A stretch of DNA of 64,000 bases from Acidobacteriota bacterium. Its GTDB lineage: Bacteria; Acidobacteriota; Blastocatellia; Chloracidobacteriales; JADJPF01. A program made the translations under genes and the position numbers. Each line of letters starts with the position of its first letter. Positions within the stretch are counted from its first letter, which is position 1. Below are positions 20,442 to 38,536 of this stretch, piece by piece. The DNA lies in NCBI GenBank assembly GCA_016213785.1, contig JACQZQ010000122.1:1-64000 (forward strand), read 5' to 3'. The notes under the pieces were generated by a model. It saw nothing but the letters and a program-made list of their open reading frames with translations. It was not told the DNA's origin and searched no databases.

Positions 20442-20790
20442 CCTCATCTTTCTAAGGCTTAAGAATAAAAATTTTAATTTAAAAACTTAACTTGTTTTAT
20501 TAGACTGTATTTATATTATATTAAGTGGCAGTTTGGTAACTAGGGTTTTTGCTATTTTTTGCTATTATAGTTCTTAAGAGCAATTATTTCCTATAGTTTA
20601 AGATAAAAGCCTTAAGTTTCTCTTAGACTAGTTTCTTCGCAGCATTTCTATTATATTTCTATTATATTTCTATTATACTCCTATAATACTCCTACAATAA
20701 TCTTTTTACTTAATCAATAAAAAGGTAGAATATATTTTGCTTTTGTTAAAGAATAATATATTTACCACTCTTTAGCGAGAAAGCCCCCAG
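20442..20790. other. AT-rich gene-free stretch with five 11-bp tandem repeats
   Basis: No gene is seen here. From 20644 to 20698 there are five head-to-tail 11-bp units: three identical atttctattat, then actcctataat and actcctacaat. The 11-bp period places the units on nearly the same DNA face. They could be protein-binding iterons or just an unstable repeat. Confidence 0.5.
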
Positions 20791-21327
20791 TTCAATGTTG
20801 TGATAGCAAAATAAGTGTGGGATGAATCGGGTCTTGATAGATAAAAAATATAGACAAAAATAAAAATAAAACCTAAAATCAATCATTCGATCAGCTTAAA
20901 TAAAGCATACTAATCTGAAGAGCCGAAACGCCCAGAGGTCGAATAATTAAGATTAAATTCTCAAAGAGAATTATCTAAAACTACTGAATTAACGGAAAAT
21001 AGAAAAACTACAAACAAGTAATTTTTCGGTATCCAACGACATAGAACCTTGTCGTTAAGATGGGAGTAAAAGCCCATACTAGGTGCGGTTAGTTCAGTAT
21101 TTGTGACTAATATAAAGCGCAACAGACGGATTAATTATCCTCAAACGTAGGTCACACTGCGTCAGAGTGCTTCGCACAAAAGATTGGAAACTATCTTAGA
21201 GCCTACAACGACATATTGTAGGAAGCGGATAGGGAGACATTTGGCCTTTTGCACTTGCCTCTGAAGATCACAGAATCCCCCACTTCAAAAAATTCATAGA
21301 ATTTTTAAGTGGGGGAGGTTCAATGTT
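20791..21327 (+). mobile_element. tnpB-less IS200/IS605-like element with omega-RNA-like right end
   Basis: The right end shows the layout I associate with tnpB omega-RNA 3' ends: ttgcctctgaag, then gaatccccc, a long hairpin (cccccactt 21277-21285 with aagtggggg 21307-21315, continuing inward) and gaggttcaa. The element is bracketed by ttcaatgtt at 20791-20799 and 21319-21327. Upstream stems add structure: aattctc/gagaatt (20956-20972), aacgaca/tgtcgtt (21035-21056), cctacaa/ttgtagg (21202-21222) inside ctatc/gatag (21191-21232). No tnpA or tnpB reading frame remains, so it would be a non-autonomous derivative. A guide-like segment would start at 21324. Element type is inferred from memory of the family. 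Confidence 0.45.
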
Positions 21328-21353
21328 AGCTGGATTAGAATATAATTCTTTTA

Positions 21354-27830: not shown

Positions 27831-28817
27831 ATGTCTTCTCTTCCCCCTAAACTTAGTCAAGCAATTGAATCAGAAGTCTCTAAAATAAACTTTTCGCTAT
27901 TTTCTGAGGCAATAAAAGAGCTTTCTCTACTCTATCGCAAAAATGAAAAAATATTTATTACTTCTCTAGAACAACGTCTTGCCTATATTGGGGTAAGACT
28001 CCCTGCAACTTATTGCGCAATTTTAAGCTCTTTTTTAGAAATAAAAAAACATTTCCCTGATATTGAAATCAGTAGTTTACTTGATTTAGGCTCAGGCCCA
28101 GGCACAACTCTTTGGGCAGCATTAAGTATTTGGCCCCAAATCAGTAAAATAACTCTAGTCGAACAAGATAGAGATTTTATTGCTCTAGGAAAAAAACTAG
28201 CAACCAATTTAACTAGCCCTACTATTAATTCTTTGGAATGGCTTAACTTAGACCTAAGTTTAACCCCAAACAATAAAGAAAACTTCTCTAAGCATGACCT
28301 AGTGATTATGTCCTATTCTCTAGGGGAAATGGACTCATTAACACAAAAGAAAGTGTTATCTCATGCTTGGCAAGCTACCCAAAATATATTAGTAATTATT
28401 GAGCCTGGTACAGTAAAAGGATTTAATAATATTCTTTTAGCTAGAGATTCTTTAATTCTTTTAGGAGCAAATATTATTGCCCCTTGCCCACATAAAGAAA
28501 AATGTCCTGTTCTAGAAAATGACTGGTGTCATTTTTCTGTACGTGTTGAACGCTCAAGCTTTCATCGTAGGGCTAAAGCAGGAACGCTTTCTTATGAAGA
28601 TGAAAAATTTTCTTATGTAATTGCAAGTAAACAACTAAGTGATAATTTTTATTCTAGAATCATCCGTCATCCGCTAAAACGCCCTAAACATATTCATCTA
28701 GATTTATGCACTAGTGCAGGTTTAAGTCGAGTAACTTTATCTCAAAAAAATAAAGAAGCTTATAAGCTTGCAAGAAAAGCTTCTTGGGGTGATATTTGGG
28801 AAAAAAATAAAACCTAG
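27831..28817 (+). CDS. Rsm22-family SAM-dependent methyltransferase-like protein
   Basis: A 328-residue protein with a Rossmann-type SAM motif I (LDLGSGPGTTLWAA, about 84-97) and the Rsm22 hallmark C-terminal region: a cysteine cluster CPHKEKCPVLENDWC, then RRAKAGTLSYEDEKFSYV. In mitochondria, Rsm22/METTL17 assists small-subunit assembly and binds an iron-sulfur cluster through such cysteines. Bacterial members are presumed to act on the ribosome or rRNA. Whether methylation occurs is unclear. No ribosome binding site is visible. Two small Cys-rich proteins are encoded just upstream. Confidence 0.85.
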   Translation: MSSLPPKLSQAIESEVSKINFSLFSEAIKELSLLYRKNEKIFITSLEQRLAYIGVRLPATYCAILSSFLEIKKHFPDIEISSLLDLGSGPGTTLWAALSIWPQISKITLVEQDRDFIALGKKLATNLTSPTINSLEWLNLDLSLTPNNKENFSKHDLVIMSYSLGEMDSLTQKKVLSHAWQATQNILVIIEPGTVKGFNNILLARDSLILLGANIIAPCPHKEKCPVLENDWCHFSVRVERSSFHRRAKAGTLSYEDEKFSYVIASKQLSDNFYSRIIRHPLKRPKHIHLDLCTSAGLSRVTLSQKNKEAYKLARKASWGDIWEKNKT

Positions 28818-29160
28818 AGATTTTACTAACTTTACCACCTTTATTGGTTTATTAGATTGCCTATTAAATCACTCTATAAGAGATTAGGAGCAAAAGCCTA
28901 TAGACAAAAAGGTTTTGAGAAAAGACCAAAACAACCCTACTTGATTTTTTATATCTTAAAATTACCCCTCCACTAAATATACTTAATCCACAAATTTACA
29001 ACACTTTCTTAGCACAATTTATACTTTCCTGATGAAAATTTGTCAGAAAAATACATAGTTTAAACAAACAAAAGGGCTAGACTTCCGCTTGTACAAGAAA
29101 GTTTATCCTGACAGGCAACAATGTAATTTTTGGCAATAAAGTCAAGGATAATACTTAAGA
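28818..29160. other. Gene-free upstream part of the accessory island
   Basis: No gene or strong structure is evident. It separates the Rsm22-family gene from the first copy of the inverted-repeat element. Only weak AT-rich inverted repeats are seen, for example gttttg/caaaac near 28.91 kb. Confidence 0.5.
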
Positions 29161-29328
29161 CTACTCAAAAGTAAGAGGACAATTGGTACAAAGTAAAAAT
29201 CTGCTTAACTCAATAATTTTTAAGGTTTTGCAATGGTGATTTTGCGAAAAATTTTTCTTACCATTTGCAGCTTTTTATCTAGCTTTGAGCAGTTATTGTA
29301 TTCAATTAGGCCATACACTTTTGAGTAG
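29161..29328 (+). repeat. Inverted-repeat-closed element, copy A
   Basis: This 168-bp segment is bounded by a perfect 12-bp inverted repeat: ctactcaaaagt (29161-29172) and acttttgagtag (29317-29328). Its interior resembles copy B (30552-30732), for example tctgcttaact versus cctgtttaact and caatggtgatttt versus caatggtgattttt. It ends 44 bases before the start of the gene at 29373. It could be a structured 5' leader, a shared regulatory region or a MITE. Confidence 0.6.
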
Positions 29329-29372
29329 GTAGTTTTTTGAGTACATAATCTTTAACTAAGGAGATAGTGAAT

Positions 29373-30545
29373 ATGTTTTTTCTACAAAAGAGAACTAATT
29401 TTTCAAATTATTTTGGCATGGCGCAAGCATTTCTTTTACTGATCTTTTTTTGTGCAAATATGTTTTTTTTATCTGCTAGCTCAATAACAGCACAGACACC
29501 TAAAAAAGAGATATTAATTTTTAATGGTGTTGTAACAGGAGTACAAGGAACAACTGTTCAAGTATTAAATGGGGCTTTGTCTTTTGATGTTTCAACAAGC
29601 AAGCTTATTGATGGATCAACTGGTAAGGCAATTCTACCTTCTGCTATAACAGTAGGCTCGGTTTTTGTTACAGAAGGCCCTATAGCAGAATCGCAATCTA
29701 CCCCTTCTAAACCTGAACTAGCTCAAGTAATTTTACCAGAAAACGGTTCAATAGGCGGTGTTTTCAAAAGCATGGATATGCTTGATGTAGCAAACCAGAC
29801 TATTACAATCAACAACCAAAAGATTACTATTGATAATGAAACAAGAATTTTTGGCCCTAGCGACGTTAAAATTGAAAAGTTTGAAGATTTTACAAAACTC
29901 AAACCCAATTTTCACGAAATTGTGATGGGAGTCAAGCTCTTAAACTCAGGCTTCATTGCCAAATCTGTATTTGTGAGTGCCATAGACGGAACTTTTTTGC
30001 GCGACTCTGGTGCTGGATATGTAACAGATGTTAAGCCAGGAATACTTGAGATTTTTGGTGGTAGAATTTCTATAAACATTGCAGATTTCCGTGCTGTTCA
30101 AGCTCAAGCAACAGGACAAACTCTTGATCCTAACTCTTCACTAAAAGGTGCTTTTATAAGCTTCGTCCGTGATGCTTCCAAATCTGCTAATGGTGAAATC
30201 AGGGTTCATCAACCAAATCTTGCTCAATTTCTTGGCAGATATAATCTCCAAAAAGTAACCAAATCCAATTTCCTTGCCTTCAATACACAGATTTTTGTTG
30301 ATAAAAATACAGAGTATCTTATAGATGGAGTCTTAGCCAAAGGAAATAAAGGGGTAAAGTTATTAAAAAAGAAGGTTGGCACACCTATCATTGTAATCGG
30401 TAAAATTATGCAAAACAAACTTTTTGCAGACACTGTTGATAATTTTGGGTTTGATGATATTTCTTTGGAAGACACTAGGTCTTTGCAATTTTATTTTCAA
30501 GAACCTATGGACTTGTTTATCTGGTCTTATTTGCCCACAGAATAA
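29373..30545 (+). CDS. Secreted protein of unknown family (DUF5666-like repeats)
   Basis: About 390 residues with a long N-terminal signal peptide (hydrophobic core LLLIFFCANMFFL, cleavage probably after SITAQ). The mature part is beta-rich, with repeated short units such as FNGVVTGVQGTTVQV, NQTITINNQKITI and GYVTDVKPGILEI, similar in style to DUF5666 proteins. No catalytic motif is visible. The start is taken at ATG 29373, not the GTG at 29367, because AAGGAG (29358-29363) is better spaced. It lies between two copies of the inverted-repeat element, copy B beginning 7 bases after its stop codon. Confidence 0.7.
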   Translation: MFFLQKRTNFSNYFGMAQAFLLLIFFCANMFFLSASSITAQTPKKEILIFNGVVTGVQGTTVQVLNGALSFDVSTSKLIDGSTGKAILPSAITVGSVFVTEGPIAESQSTPSKPELAQVILPENGSIGGVFKSMDMLDVANQTITINNQKITIDNETRIFGPSDVKIEKFEDFTKLKPNFHEIVMGVKLLNSGFIAKSVFVSAIDGTFLRDSGAGYVTDVKPGILEIFGGRISINIADFRAVQAQATGQTLDPNSSLKGAFISFVRDASKSANGEIRVHQPNLAQFLGRYNLQKVTKSNFLAFNTQIFVDKNTEYLIDGVLAKGNKGVKLLKKKVGTPIIVIGKIMQNKLFADTVDNFGFDDISLEDTRSLQFYFQEPMDLFIWSYLPTE

Positions 30546-30551
30546 AAGCAT

Positions 30552-30732
30552 CTATTCAAAAGTGGTGGTTTAATGGATGTAAAAAATGGAAACCTGTTTA
30601 ACTGCAAAAAACTTTAAGCTTATACAATGGTGATTTTTGCGAATTTTTTTGACATTCCTTTGCTATTTACAACCTTTATACAGCTTTAAGTGCTTATTAT
30701 ATCCATTAACCACACACTTTTGAGTTTTATAG
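30552..30732 (+). repeat. Inverted-repeat-closed element, copy B
   Basis: This 181-bp segment begins 7 bases after the stop of the secreted-protein gene and ends 19 bases before the GTG at 30751. Its ends pair over 11 bp (attcaaaagtg, 30554-30564, with cacttttgagt, 30715-30725) with one T-G wobble where copy A has a C-G pair. The interior is alignable with copy A across most of its length. Confidence 0.6.
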
Positions 30733-30750: not shown

Positions 30751-32961
30751 GTGGAAATTGAAAGTGCTGTCGCAAAATTAAACAACATTCTTTTTGCTAC
30801 TTTGTCTGCTTTTGAAAAGACAGGTTTGGTTGATTTAGAACTCTTACCTTATGCTGAAAGAGCTATGATACTAGCTCTTTCTCTATTTCCCAATCAGGAG
30901 ATAGCCTTTCAGATAGTTTTGGATGCTGCGCTTAACGTAAAACATGTTGCTTATGATAAAAGCCGCTATAGAAAACACTCTGATGCTAACAAAGTAACAA
31001 AAGTATTACTTAATAAAGTACAGATGTTCCAAGATATGATCTGGTTAGAATCGCAAAAGTGGGAAAAATACCAAGAAGTAGAATATGTTATGCGATATTT
31101 GCACTGCTGTAATGAAAAGTCACGTAGACAATACTTGGCAACATATAACCTACAAATTAAAGATTTAGAAAATACACTTAAGCTTAGTGAAATAGCTTCT
31201 GATAGTCATCTTACGAAATTATATGAGCAGCATAAAGATATCGCTCTAGAACAAAAAGATATGCTTGCTCGGTATTTAAAATTTCTTATTCAAAGCTCCA
31301 TTGATAACAACTCGTTTTATGTAGCATTGGCTATAAGTCATATGGTTTATGATTATTCGCTACCACAGGTGGTTGATCTCTGTGTATATCTTAATCCAGA
31401 TGTAGTAGAGGGAACATACCTATACAAACTAAAGAAAAAATTCATAGAAAAGCTAAAAAAACGTTTTTACTTATTTATTAAGTGGAAAAATGAAACAGAT
31501 AAAGAGCTTTTTGATATTAAAGAAGACCATGAAGGTTTGTGGCAAGAATTTATAAGGCAATGCAATTATAAGTTTATTCCCTGGGAAACTGACTGTGTAG
31601 CAGAAACCTTTAATAAAAGTACTAAGTCTTTTGACCAACATTTATTTGAAAGCCTCGAAAAAATTAGTACTATTGATCAAGTAGAAATGAGCCGTGCCCA
31701 TACTATAATATGTCCTGATTGTTATACTTGTTTGATTGATAACTATATCAAAGACACTTCTCTACATAAAACTAAACCGCTACAACCACCTAAACTAGTA
31801 GTTCCACACTTTAACATTCCCCAAATAGAAATAAGTGAACCTAGAGCAGGAGAAAAAGAGATGAGAAAAATCATAAACGGCTCAAAGGATCTTAAACAAG
31901 AACTTAGTAATTTAGCTATGCAAGTTATGCAAAAGGCTAAAAAGACGGGAGAAAATCTAGAAGAGATATTTGTTTTTATAGATGGTGAGAAAAAAGCAGA
32001 ATTCAACCTAAAACAAACTCGTAGCATTCGCTTAAGTCTGTCAGAGGATGTAAAGCTAATCAAGGTTACTTCTCATCATAACAATACTCTTTCTTTGTTA
32101 GCGGTTTTTGTATTAAGTGCAACAGATATAGACTATTCATGGCTAGATCGTTTATTAGGAAAGCAAAAGAAGTACTTTAGAGCCTTAGCTTTAGGAAGCC
32201 AAATTACTTTTATACTAAGACCTGCCAAATTTGGTATATTTGGTATAGATAATAAAACCTTTGTTATGGATATCTCTTATCAAAAACCTTTGGCTTGGCA
32301 AGAAAGTAAAATAAGCATATTAACCCTACTCAACCAACAATGGCAAAGACCTTTTAGGTTAGTAACAAGTTTTGTTACTGTTATTGTTATAGCTTGTGTG
32401 TTGTTAATCTATTTTAATTTGTCTAATAAACAAGGATTACCTAAAGACAAAGAAAATATAAGCCAGAAACAGAAAATAAATAAACAGGAAATAAATAAAC
32501 AAGAACCACTATCCAAAACACCTACACCACAACCTGAAGTAAATAAAACAATAGCAAAAAATACCAAAATTAAAGAACCTGTAAAAACAATAGCAAAAAA
32601 TACAAGAAAAACATTTCCTCAAGATGAGCAAACTTTATCTTCATCTGCGCCAATTGAAACAGAGTTAGTTAAAATAGAACAGATTTACATAGAGCTACTA
32701 GACAATAGCTCACTACACGAACAGTTTTATAAAATGCTAGAAGAATATTTGGCAAAAGAAAAGATAGAGGTTTTAGCAAGAAAAGATTTAGCTGATGCTC
32801 TGCTACAAGGTACGCTAAAAGAACATAATGGTGAGTTGTTAGTAGATATAGAAGTTGTAAATCGCAAAGGTAAAATATTATTCCAAGAAAGATTTACAGG
32901 ATATAAAGACCCTAGAGATTTGGCAATAGTTATTGTTTCCCGCCTAAAAGAAAAACATTAG
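30751..32961 (+). CDS. Large protein of unknown family with one transmembrane helix
   Basis: A 736-residue protein starting at GTG (AGGAAAAA just upstream). The N-terminal half is helical, with a start (AERAMILALSLFPNQ) recalling sigma-factor-like helical domains. A cysteine pair ICPDCYTC lies near residue 320. A single transmembrane helix (about 548-566, TVIVIACVLLIYF) is followed by a Lys/Thr/Pro-rich linker and a C-terminal alpha/beta domain (about 640-736). This could place the last domain in the periplasm. I do not recognise the family. It is preceded by copy B of the inverted-repeat element and followed by a large structured intergenic region. It may be island-specific. Confidence 0.65.
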   Translation: MEIESAVAKLNNILFATLSAFEKTGLVDLELLPYAERAMILALSLFPNQEIAFQIVLDAALNVKHVAYDKSRYRKHSDANKVTKVLLNKVQMFQDMIWLESQKWEKYQEVEYVMRYLHCCNEKSRRQYLATYNLQIKDLENTLKLSEIASDSHLTKLYEQHKDIALEQKDMLARYLKFLIQSSIDNNSFYVALAISHMVYDYSLPQVVDLCVYLNPDVVEGTYLYKLKKKFIEKLKKRFYLFIKWKNETDKELFDIKEDHEGLWQEFIRQCNYKFIPWETDCVAETFNKSTKSFDQHLFESLEKISTIDQVEMSRAHTIICPDCYTCLIDNYIKDTSLHKTKPLQPPKLVVPHFNIPQIEISEPRAGEKEMRKIINGSKDLKQELSNLAMQVMQKAKKTGENLEEIFVFIDGEKKAEFNLKQTRSIRLSLSEDVKLIKVTSHHNNTLSLLAVFVLSATDIDYSWLDRLLGKQKKYFRALALGSQITFILRPAKFGIFGIDNKTFVMDISYQKPLAWQESKISILTLLNQQWQRPFRLVTSFVTVIVIACVLLIYFNLSNKQGLPKDKENISQKQKINKQEINKQEPLSKTPTPQPEVNKTIAKNTKIKEPVKTIAKNTRKTFPQDEQTLSSSAPIETELVKIEQIYIELLDNSSLHEQFYKMLEEYLAKEKIEVLARKDLADALLQGTLKEHNGELLVDIEVVNRKGKILFQERFTGYKDPRDLAIVIVSRLKEKH

Positions 32962-35275: not shown

Positions 35276-38200
35276 TTATTTATATTCACCATTGAGAACA
35301 AAGGCAGCCCAATAATAAGGATTTTTCCAGCGTGATTGTTGAAGCATTTCTATTTGTGCTGCACGTAGTGCCGATGCAGGAGAGTGCTTTTGTCTGCCTA
35401 ACATATGTTTATAAAAACGTACCATCAGTTCTGAAGTAGCTTCTACAGGTATATTCCACATTGTAACCATTACGCGTGACGCACCTGCATAGACAAAGCC
35501 CCTTGTTAATCCTACTACTCCTAGATCTTTGGCTTTATTGAGTCGTTGTTTGATTATAAATGGGTTATCAGACTCTTCTGGATCTAGTGCTAGCCCAGTA
35601 CGACAAGCACTAAGAATCACTAAATCTACTGGTAAATCAAGGTTAAATATTGCTGCGGCACTAAGAAAACCATTCTGATTTCTACCTTCTACATCAAAAA
35701 GAGAAAGTACTATCCCAGAAAGTTCAGGATTAGGACTAAGAAAACCATGAGTAGCATAATGCACAATTCTGTATTGACCTATCTCTTGTTTTGTTGCCAT
35801 TGCCAAATTAGCATCAAATCCTAGCATTAATTTATTAGCTGATCCTGGAGTAATAGCAAGTATATCTCTTGCCATTTTTTCTGTCTCAGGTATAGGCGAT
35901 AATCCTGCAAGAATTTTCTCTAGTGAACCATTGGATAAATTATCCTGCTTTCCATTTGTTACATTTGCTGATGATTTAAGACGATTATCTTCTAGGGAAA
36001 AAACAGGGTTAGCAAAAATAGCAATATTTTTACTTGCAGGCTTGCGCCCTAGTATTTCTTGTCTTTGCAACGCAAGGCTTGCTACAGAAGGTAAATTAGT
36101 TACTTCATGAGTCAAAAGCAAAGGTGTCCAATCAGCCTTATATAGCTTTTTCACTCTCTGGCCTCTAGAAAGGCTCTTGGGCGTAGGAAGAGGTAGCGCA
36201 GCAAAAGGTACATACTGCAACATGCCTTCACTGACAATCAGTAGTCGCTTCTTTTGCCGATGCTCAGCCATTGGTTTAAGTACCATATTACTTAATTCAG
36301 TTACAGCCATTGCCATTTCACTTTGTGCCTTGTTTAATCGCTGAGCAAATTTTTCATCACTTTCAAAACTCTTTCTTTCCCGTGCAGTAAACAATTGGTA
36401 AACGCGTAATGCAAGAGTTTCTATCTCTGTACGTTTAGGTAGCTTATAACTAGCAATTGAAGTCTGTGTAACTGCCCATACATAGCTATGCTCACTTCCT
36501 AAGGCATACTCTAGTAATACTGTATCATCAAGTAGTTGTTCTTGAATTTGATCTAGTGTAATAGGTTGGGGTTGTTGTTGTGCTGCATAATGAGGATTAT
36601 TCTTATATATTAATGCTTCTACATATTGCAGTTCATTGTTTACTTTTTCTGCTTCTTGTTTTGCAGCATTCTCTTCTGCTTCAGTATGCTTACGAGTAAA
36701 AAGTTGCAGTAAATTTTCTGCTTTGATATTAATTTGCTTTCTAAGATTGCGTTCCCGCTCCAATAGCTGAGGATCTATGCCTTGACGTATATCTATGCGG
36801 GCTTCGGTTAGTATTTCTCGAAAAGTACGTGCACGTGCACGTTCACTGGCTTGTAATGCCAATACATCATAACCTGCTGATGGCTCTTCTTGATGTAGTT
36901 TCATCAGTAAATCTATATAAAATTCATAGTAATTATTCTGTGAGGCAGTAAAAGAGGCGCGTAGTTCTTTAACACTTATCTTGGTACGTAATGATTCAAT
37001 AAGGGTAAGTGCTTGTTGGGTTAAAGCAAGAGCTTCTTTGTATTCATTAGTACTATATTTAAGCTTAGCCATATTTAAGAATGTACTTGCTTCTAATGAT
37101 TTATCCTCTATGGCTCTTGCCAGTACTAATGCCTGATTAAAACAGTCAATGGCTTTTTGATTTTCTTTTATTAAAAAGTAAGTTCTCCCTAAATTCCTAA
37201 GAGCAGATGCTGTATTAGGTTTATCATCTATTGACCTTGCAAGTTGTAAGGCTTGATTATGAAAATCAAGTGCTTTCTGATTTTCACCTAAGTCTTCATA
37301 AACTATGCCAATGTGAGAGAGTCTACTTGGCACCAATGCTTTATCACGGCTCGCTTTTACTATTGCAAGTGATTGGTTTAGGTAATCTAGTGCTTTTTGG
37401 GGTTCTCCCAAGGCAATATAAACTATGCCAATATAATTAAAAATGTGTGCTTCTTCAAACTGAGCAAAAAGCGGAGCAAATTCAGGTGGAGGGTCATCAG
37501 TTACTTTTTTTCCTGATATTGCTTGATGGTAAAAATCAAGTGCTTTTTGATACTCTCCTAGTAAATCATAAATAACCCCAATTTGGCTTAAGATTACTGT
37601 TTGTACTCCATTATTTGGTAGAGGTAGAGATAAGGCTTGATTAAAACTATCAAGTGCTTTTTGTAGCTCTTCCACTTCAACATAACTTACTCCTATACTA
37701 TATAGTACATATACCTGCCATTTAATATCATCTAACTTCTGATAGATGGCTAATGCTTGGCATAGATAATCAAGTGCTTTTTGATGCTCTTGCAATACTT
37801 GATAAGAAGTACCAATAACTCCTAATAGTTGTGCTTCATAACCCTTATCCTCTAATTTCTTAATGATTTCTAATGCTTGGTGGAAAAAATCAAGTCCTTT
37901 TTGATTTTCATCTAGATCCTTGTAAGAACCACCTAAAGAATAAAGAGTTGTTGCTATTCTCTCTTGATCTCCAACGAGTTGCCATTCTTTTAGTGCTGCT
38001 TCATAGCTTTCTATTGTCTTTTGTAAGAATTCAGGAGTTATTTTTACAGATAAAGATTCTTTATAAATATCTGATAATATTTGTTGGGCAGTAAGGCAAT
38101 GGGAATCTTTTGCTATAGCCTGTCGCAACTCTATAATACTAATTTTATATTTGCCAGGTTTGGCTCTTTTATCTGTAGATTGTACCTTTAACTTATAGTT

Positions 38201-38536
38201 TGCTGTCTTCTCTGATATAAATGAGAGTGGCTCTTGACCATATTCGGCATTAGGGCTATCAACTGTCTGAAGTTGCTTATTATCAGCGTCAAAAATTGAA
38301 ACAGCTACATCTATACGGTTTTGTTCTACAACCACTTTAAGGTATTGCCCAGCATTGAGGCTAATTTGGTAAGAATGGCTATCACCTGCTTTTAGCTCTA
38401 GTTCAAGAGTTTTACCTTGCTCCAATTTATCCATATCATTCTTTGGTATGATAACTTCCTGTGATGGTGAAGTTATTACTGTCTTTGGTGTAAAACTATA
38501 AAATGGAAAAATTAGGTAAAAAAGTAGAAGTAGCAT
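35276..38536 (-). CDS. TPR-CHAT protease-like protein
   Basis: A 1086-residue protein. It begins with a hydrophobic segment (about 1-17, signal or anchor), then a beta-rich pre-peptidase-like region (about 40-135), ten or so TPR repeats (about 145-545), a helical linker and a C-terminal CHAT domain (about 760-1086). The caspase-like dyad is intact: H930 in YATHGF and C978 in LSACRTG. CHAT proteins are caspase-related proteases found in bacterial conflict and cell-death systems; TPRs recruit partners. The export signal would put the protease outside the cytoplasm, which is unusual for a suicide system but common in Acidobacteriota/cyanobacteria-type CHAT proteins. GAGAGGG precedes the ATG. Confidence 0.88.
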   Translation of the reverse strand: MLLLLFYLIFPFYSFTPKTVITSPSQEVIIPKNDMDKLEQGKTLELELKAGDSHSYQISLNAGQYLKVVVEQNRIDVAVSIFDADNKQLQTVDSPNAEYGQEPLSFISEKTANYKLKVQSTDKRAKPGKYKISIIELRQAIAKDSHCLTAQQILSDIYKESLSVKITPEFLQKTIESYEAALKEWQLVGDQERIATTLYSLGGSYKDLDENQKGLDFFHQALEIIKKLEDKGYEAQLLGVIGTSYQVLQEHQKALDYLCQALAIYQKLDDIKWQVYVLYSIGVSYVEVEELQKALDSFNQALSLPLPNNGVQTVILSQIGVIYDLLGEYQKALDFYHQAISGKKVTDDPPPEFAPLFAQFEEAHIFNYIGIVYIALGEPQKALDYLNQSLAIVKASRDKALVPSRLSHIGIVYEDLGENQKALDFHNQALQLARSIDDKPNTASALRNLGRTYFLIKENQKAIDCFNQALVLARAIEDKSLEASTFLNMAKLKYSTNEYKEALALTQQALTLIESLRTKISVKELRASFTASQNNYYEFYIDLLMKLHQEEPSAGYDVLALQASERARARTFREILTEARIDIRQGIDPQLLERERNLRKQINIKAENLLQLFTRKHTEAEENAAKQEAEKVNNELQYVEALIYKNNPHYAAQQQPQPITLDQIQEQLLDDTVLLEYALGSEHSYVWAVTQTSIASYKLPKRTEIETLALRVYQLFTARERKSFESDEKFAQRLNKAQSEMAMAVTELSNMVLKPMAEHRQKKRLLIVSEGMLQYVPFAALPLPTPKSLSRGQRVKKLYKADWTPLLLTHEVTNLPSVASLALQRQEILGRKPASKNIAIFANPVFSLEDNRLKSSANVTNGKQDNLSNGSLEKILAGLSPIPETEKMARDILAITPGSANKLMLGFDANLAMATKQEIGQYRIVHYATHGFLSPNPELSGIVLSLFDVEGRNQNGFLSAAAIFNLDLPVDLVILSACRTGLALDPEESDNPFIIKQRLNKAKDLGVVGLTRGFVYAGASRVMVTMWNIPVEATSELMVRFYKHMLGRQKHSPASALRAAQIEMLQQSRWKNPYYWAAFVLNGEYK

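Follow-up and report, generated by a model that had tools for sequence, protein, structure and literature searches.

Two related imperfect palindromes in front of two genes of a Blastocatellia genome, possible relics of a small foldback element

In the bacterial MITEs ERIC, RUP and Correia, the terminal inverted repeats (TIRs) are short, the termini are TA and the RNA forms a stem-loop (PMC2229807). ERIC (IRU, RU-1), an enterobacterial element of 127 bp, is co-transcribed, gives a hairpin RNA and has a reported effect on mRNA stability (PMC2229807). RUP of pneumococcus, a MITE of about 107 bp driven by IS630-Spn1 (PMC2229807, PMC3049150), has been counted 110 times in one strain (PMC3049150); its parent IS is known and carries identical ends. 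The Correia elements (NEMIS) of Neisseria measure 105–155 bp, fall into size classes that differ by internal deletion, and contain putative promoters (PMC2229807). Palindromes can also be shaped by replication itself: template switching acts on quasi-palindromes (PMC8794818, PMC8604942).

Here we compare with these systems two elements, A and B, that lie in front of two genes in the window, i.e., the whole 64,000-nucleotide stretch of DNA analyzed. The two elements resemble ERIC in size, imperfect palindromy, short TIR and intergenic position; RUP in length, AT-richness and short TIR; and Correia in length, predicted stem-loop RNA and the occurrence of size classes by internal deletion, the putative promoters inside Correia being comparable to a promoter-like hexamer in the right end of A. 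The TA termini of ERIC and Correia and the TA target of RUP have a possible counterpart in the TA on either side of A. The likeness is one of anatomy, and no sequence homology is claimed: the Correia TIR is 24 bp long and of other sequence, and whereas ERIC is multi-copy, Correia has a high copy number and RUP is widely repeated, A and B are two copies at one locus and, unlike RUP, have no known parent IS with the same ends.

Element A (29163..29327, + strand) is a TA-flanked, foldback- or MITE-like imperfect palindrome of 165 bp located 5' of gene 1, and element B (30554..30725, + strand) is an imperfect palindrome of 172 bp that takes up most of the gap between gene 1 and gene 2. Together with their orthologues described below, they measure 71–172 bp, below the few hundred bp typical of MITEs, and no ORF of at least 60 aa lies inside them. 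The initial annotation, which had recognized A and B as a pair of related inverted-repeat elements, was right on this point: in a whole-genome blastn search they are 72% identical on the same strand over 141–147 nt (E 3e-10 to 4e-10), they have in common blocks of 46 nt (74% identity) and 16 nt (94%) as well as the internal block CAATGGTGATTTT, and for neither element did any of 200 dinucleotide shuffles fold as well (RNA-fold z: A, -3.8; B, -5.85; A folded as DNA, -3.0). The arms of B extend over 30 nt and are 80% complementary. Since a scan of the 64 kb with a fixed 170-nt frame finds stronger structures than either element, which is not near the top, the notable point is the occurrence of two related palindromes 5' of two genes and not the strength of the fold alone. 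An intrinsic terminator (G+C-rich stem plus T run) was not found by the scanner at A or B.

The inverted ends ACTCAAAAGT...ACTTTTGAGT are common to both elements and both orthologues, with one mismatch at the left of B. The conserved left end of A, ACTCAAAAGT (29163..29172, + strand), is identical in the orthologue, and its right terminal repeat (29301..29327, + strand) reads as ACTCAAAAGTGTATGG on the minus strand; the right terminal repeat of B, of ~26 bp (30700..30725, + strand; ACTCAAAAGTGTGTGGTTAATGGATA on the minus strand), differs at 1–2 positions from the right end of each orthologue. A is bordered by TA on each side in both species, whereas the borders of B are TA/TT in the window's genome (G000) and AA/TT in the sister species. 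Because TA...TA is self-complementary, a target duplication at A is indistinguishable from an extra pair of the stem.

Gene 1 (29373..30545, + strand) encodes a secreted-looking, weakly DUF5666-like protein and gene 2 (30751..32961, + strand) a 736-aa protein with one hydrophobic segment. In the class, homologues of gene 1 were found only in the window's genome and the sister species, plus one paralogue in each (24–32% identity), while members of the gene 2 family occur in 31 of the 162 class genomes. Pairs of the end motif were absent near the gene 2 homologues checked and near the gene 1 paralogue; a general tie between the hairpin and the gene 2 family was rejected, as these homologues have no paired ends nearby. 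For the distance to a start codon, given as 19–44 bases in the initial annotation, we obtain the following: the gap between A and its likely start, the ATG at 29373, measures 45 nt, or 39 nt if counted to an in-frame GTG at 29367, and B, which begins 8 nt past the stop codon of gene 1, ends 25 nt 5' of the GTG at 30751. An out-of-frame ATG nearer to B (30749, ~23 nt) is not conserved, being ACG in the sister species. Between species the distance is constant at A but not at B (25 versus ~43 nt, with a 17-nt indel). A weak promoter-like pair, TTGAGT-17-CATAAT (29321..29349, + strand), has its first hexamer inside the right end of A and is conserved in the sister species; the region holds 8 promoter-like sites compared with 7.8 by chance, and a promoter function for this pair is putative. 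By Pfam, none of the genes immediately next to the locus encodes a DNA-binding regulator. In G005, a distantly related homologue of gene 2 (31% identity) adjoins a CHAT-type gene, and a TPR/CHAT-type gene lies two genes from gene 2 in the window (35276–38536), which suggests an old association between the two.

The sole same-genus species compared, G001 of the Blastocatellia (public record: MAG 'Blastocatellia bacterium isolate nzgw73'), has both elements at orthologous places, A' of ~95 bp and B' of ~71 bp. In both, the ends are retained and the centre has been lost or replaced, including the block in which A and B agree best; A' and B' likewise fold better than all 200 shuffles. Synonymous divergence between the two species is about 0.18–0.22 (Nei–Gojobori count). 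The 10-base ends differ at only 1 of 40 positions, compared with about 16–19% at synonymous sites (P 0.002–0.008, for ends that had been picked for matching), and the stretch from the right end of A to the ATG, which differs at 2 of 65 positions (P about 0.0001–0.001), is under constraint. Along the locus, divergence between the species is at its maximum on A and B and falls steeply at their right ends.

Synonymous divergence between the two species climbs along gene 1 from 0.06 in its first quarter to 0.47 in its last, beside B, while in gene 2 it is even (0.12–0.20); such a gradient could stem from recombination with an allele that had diverged, or from the proximity of a mutable palindrome. 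Synteny breaks 5' of A (28817–28930), where the window has an Rsm22-like methyltransferase gene and G001 a gene (L032) whose NERD/helicase-like function was assigned by eye from sequence, while the 230 bases 5' of A are conserved. Two further candidates were rejected: an invertible promoter, as the orthologues have the same orientation (covariance-model scores of 110 versus 48 on the two strands at A'), and a composite cassette around gene 1, as both species preserve the sequence on either side of it, without a visible junction.

Past the 10-bp core, A', B and B' agree almost completely in their right arms, to a length of ~26 bp. The left arm of B matches right arms (its own, p<=0.006; that of A', p about 0.015) but not the left arm of A (p about 0.9), and the left arm of B' is likewise similar to a right arm (p about 0.006); neither A nor A' has a left arm that matches the ~26-bp right-arm sequence. 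As judged from these alignments, the pattern would fit an ancestral ~26-bp repeat at both ends, some arms of which have since decayed, or homogenization of the arms. The C–G pair of A that corresponds to T–G in B, pointed out in the initial annotation, is real; however, as only one side of one pair has changed, it is not evidence of covariation, and covariation of the terminal stem across the four sequences is no better than in shuffles (120/500).

No copy besides A and B exists in their genome, and G001 likewise has two, both at this locus. The end motif at up to 3 mismatches gave nothing in 58 relatives beyond A, B and the G001 pair, and a covariance model run against 162 class genomes gave no further copies with homologous ends or core; the search for more copies that had been proposed thus ended with the G001 orthologues. 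The exact pattern matched nothing in the public species-genome collection except the record of G001 itself, plasmids, phages and viral contigs contained no copies, and nothing in the window reached the gathering score of an Rfam family or gave a meaningful match at a lax threshold. Nor were the ends ACTCAAAAGT...ACTTTTGAGT found elsewhere in the genomes searched as part of an autonomous element. The search for a parent IS, which covered IS630-like genes in incomplete assemblies, yielded one such gene in the window's genome, without these ends. No empty site was seen among the genomes compared: G001 is filled at both positions, and the other genomes have no gene 1.

Several other structures came to light in passing. 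Weak covariance-model matches in genomes of family f4 were low-complexity heptad hairpins with a different core and were rejected as copies, as were weak matches in G000, G001 and G002, which lack paired ends where inspected. Long, near-perfect intergenic hairpins with heptad-like arms (AAAAGGT/AAAAGTA/AAAAGGC) occur in G058 (L090–L094) and G068 (L095–L098); the five in G058 share the core GGCGAAAAGCAGTTTAA...GGTTTCAGCC and therefore constitute a repeat family there, and similar hairpins are present in G068, G075, G082, G085, G087, G123 and G147. In the window, an intergenic stretch at 20780–21340 looks structured (hairpin CCCCCACTTC...AAGTGGGGG) and has no Rfam match; it is possibly an intron or mobile-element RNA. 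An IS630-like transposase in the window's genome (contig C11, 4056–4352; L114) is split over two overlapping frames and followed by tandem copies of ~80 bp.

Our preferred reading, with little more than even confidence, is that a small non-autonomous foldback element of MITE/ERIC type left A and B as two relics, inserted before the two species split and eroded since. The observations on A and B on which it builds are their anatomy, relatedness, copy number, orthology, conserved ends and central loss: the terminal inverted repeats, AT-richness, length below 200 bp, TA at A and internal-deletion derivatives support it, and the restriction to two copies per genome at one locus, without dispersal, opposes it. 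The MITE option of the initial annotation fits the anatomy, but copies elsewhere with target-site duplications were found neither in the genome of A and B nor in 162 class genomes. In this scenario, a foldback element with terminal inverted repeats of ~26 bp (ACTCAAAAGTGTATGGTTAATGGATA) would have arrived at the locus, or been copied locally, before the sister species separated; the centres of the palindromes would then have decayed, with internal deletions in G001, and the arms may have been partly homogenized via replication template switching, as in quasi-palindromes. The left arm of B, which looks homogenized without covariation above chance, is like those structures; template switching would account for upkeep and erosion but not for two related copies 5' of two genes. 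As both elements lie upstream of genes in sense orientation, any transcript across A or B would form a hairpin, and the right end of A may provide gene 1 with a -35-like box. We infer the mobile origin, the template switching, the transcription and any effect on expression; transposition is a likely but unproven origin, since only two copies, no parent, an ambiguous TA and no empty site were found. A leader role would be secondary. A and B are lineage-restricted elements, probably of a known kind.

A functional, duplicated leader hairpin is a serious rival to MITE relics, although we consider it somewhat unlikely. It would be an immobile structure in which the closing stem matters while length and sequence of the loop are free, and it could serve in attenuation, in processing by RNase III, in shielding the 5' end of the mRNA or in linking gene 1 to gene 2. 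The same strand and gene-proximal place at both genes in both species, ends conserved above synonymous sites, strong folding retained despite loss of the centre, and exactly two copies, each 5' of a gene of one locus, all speak for it. However, the terminal stem covaries no more than shuffles do, the distance from B to the start varies, pairs of the end motif are absent at the relatives of gene 2 checked and at the paralogue of gene 1, and a terminator tail is missing; moreover, since neutral DNA would still be about 80% identical at this divergence, a function does not follow from the mere retention of A and B. A leader role and a foldback origin may both apply. A version that joins them, in which lineage-specific paired hairpins from a domesticated foldback element co-control the two genes, with only the closing stem and right arm constrained and a replaceable centre, seems to us unlikely.

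That the paired ends ACTCAAAAGTG are instead bound by a protein as DNA, an operator or looping site co-regulating genes 1 and 2, would agree with the ends and right ~26 bp being the most conserved part across copies and with the overlap between the right end of A and the promoter-like pair kept in G001. Yet the end-to-end spacing is variable (about 60–160 bp) and does not keep to one helical phase, neither genome has a third site, and the immediate neighbours include no DNA-binding regulator by Pfam, which leaves this quite improbable. The initial annotation had also proposed cis-regulatory RNAs. A riboswitch-like or otherwise sequence-conserved RNA common to both genes was suggested by the block CAATGGTGATTTT in A and B, but it is precisely this internal block that is deleted in A' and B' while the closing stem stays; ligand-binding or other sequence-conserved RNA is thus disfavoured and, with no Rfam match either, we regard it as highly improbable.

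If A and B are old MITE-type insertions, they would exemplify, within the Blastocatellia (Acidobacteriota), the fixation of small foldback elements in gene leaders, and offer a dated pair (synonymous divergence about 0.2) in which a palindrome erodes from the centre first and at the ends last. If, on the other hand, their closing stems are functional, the locus would be a simple natural test of expression control by a hairpin with a replaceable loop.
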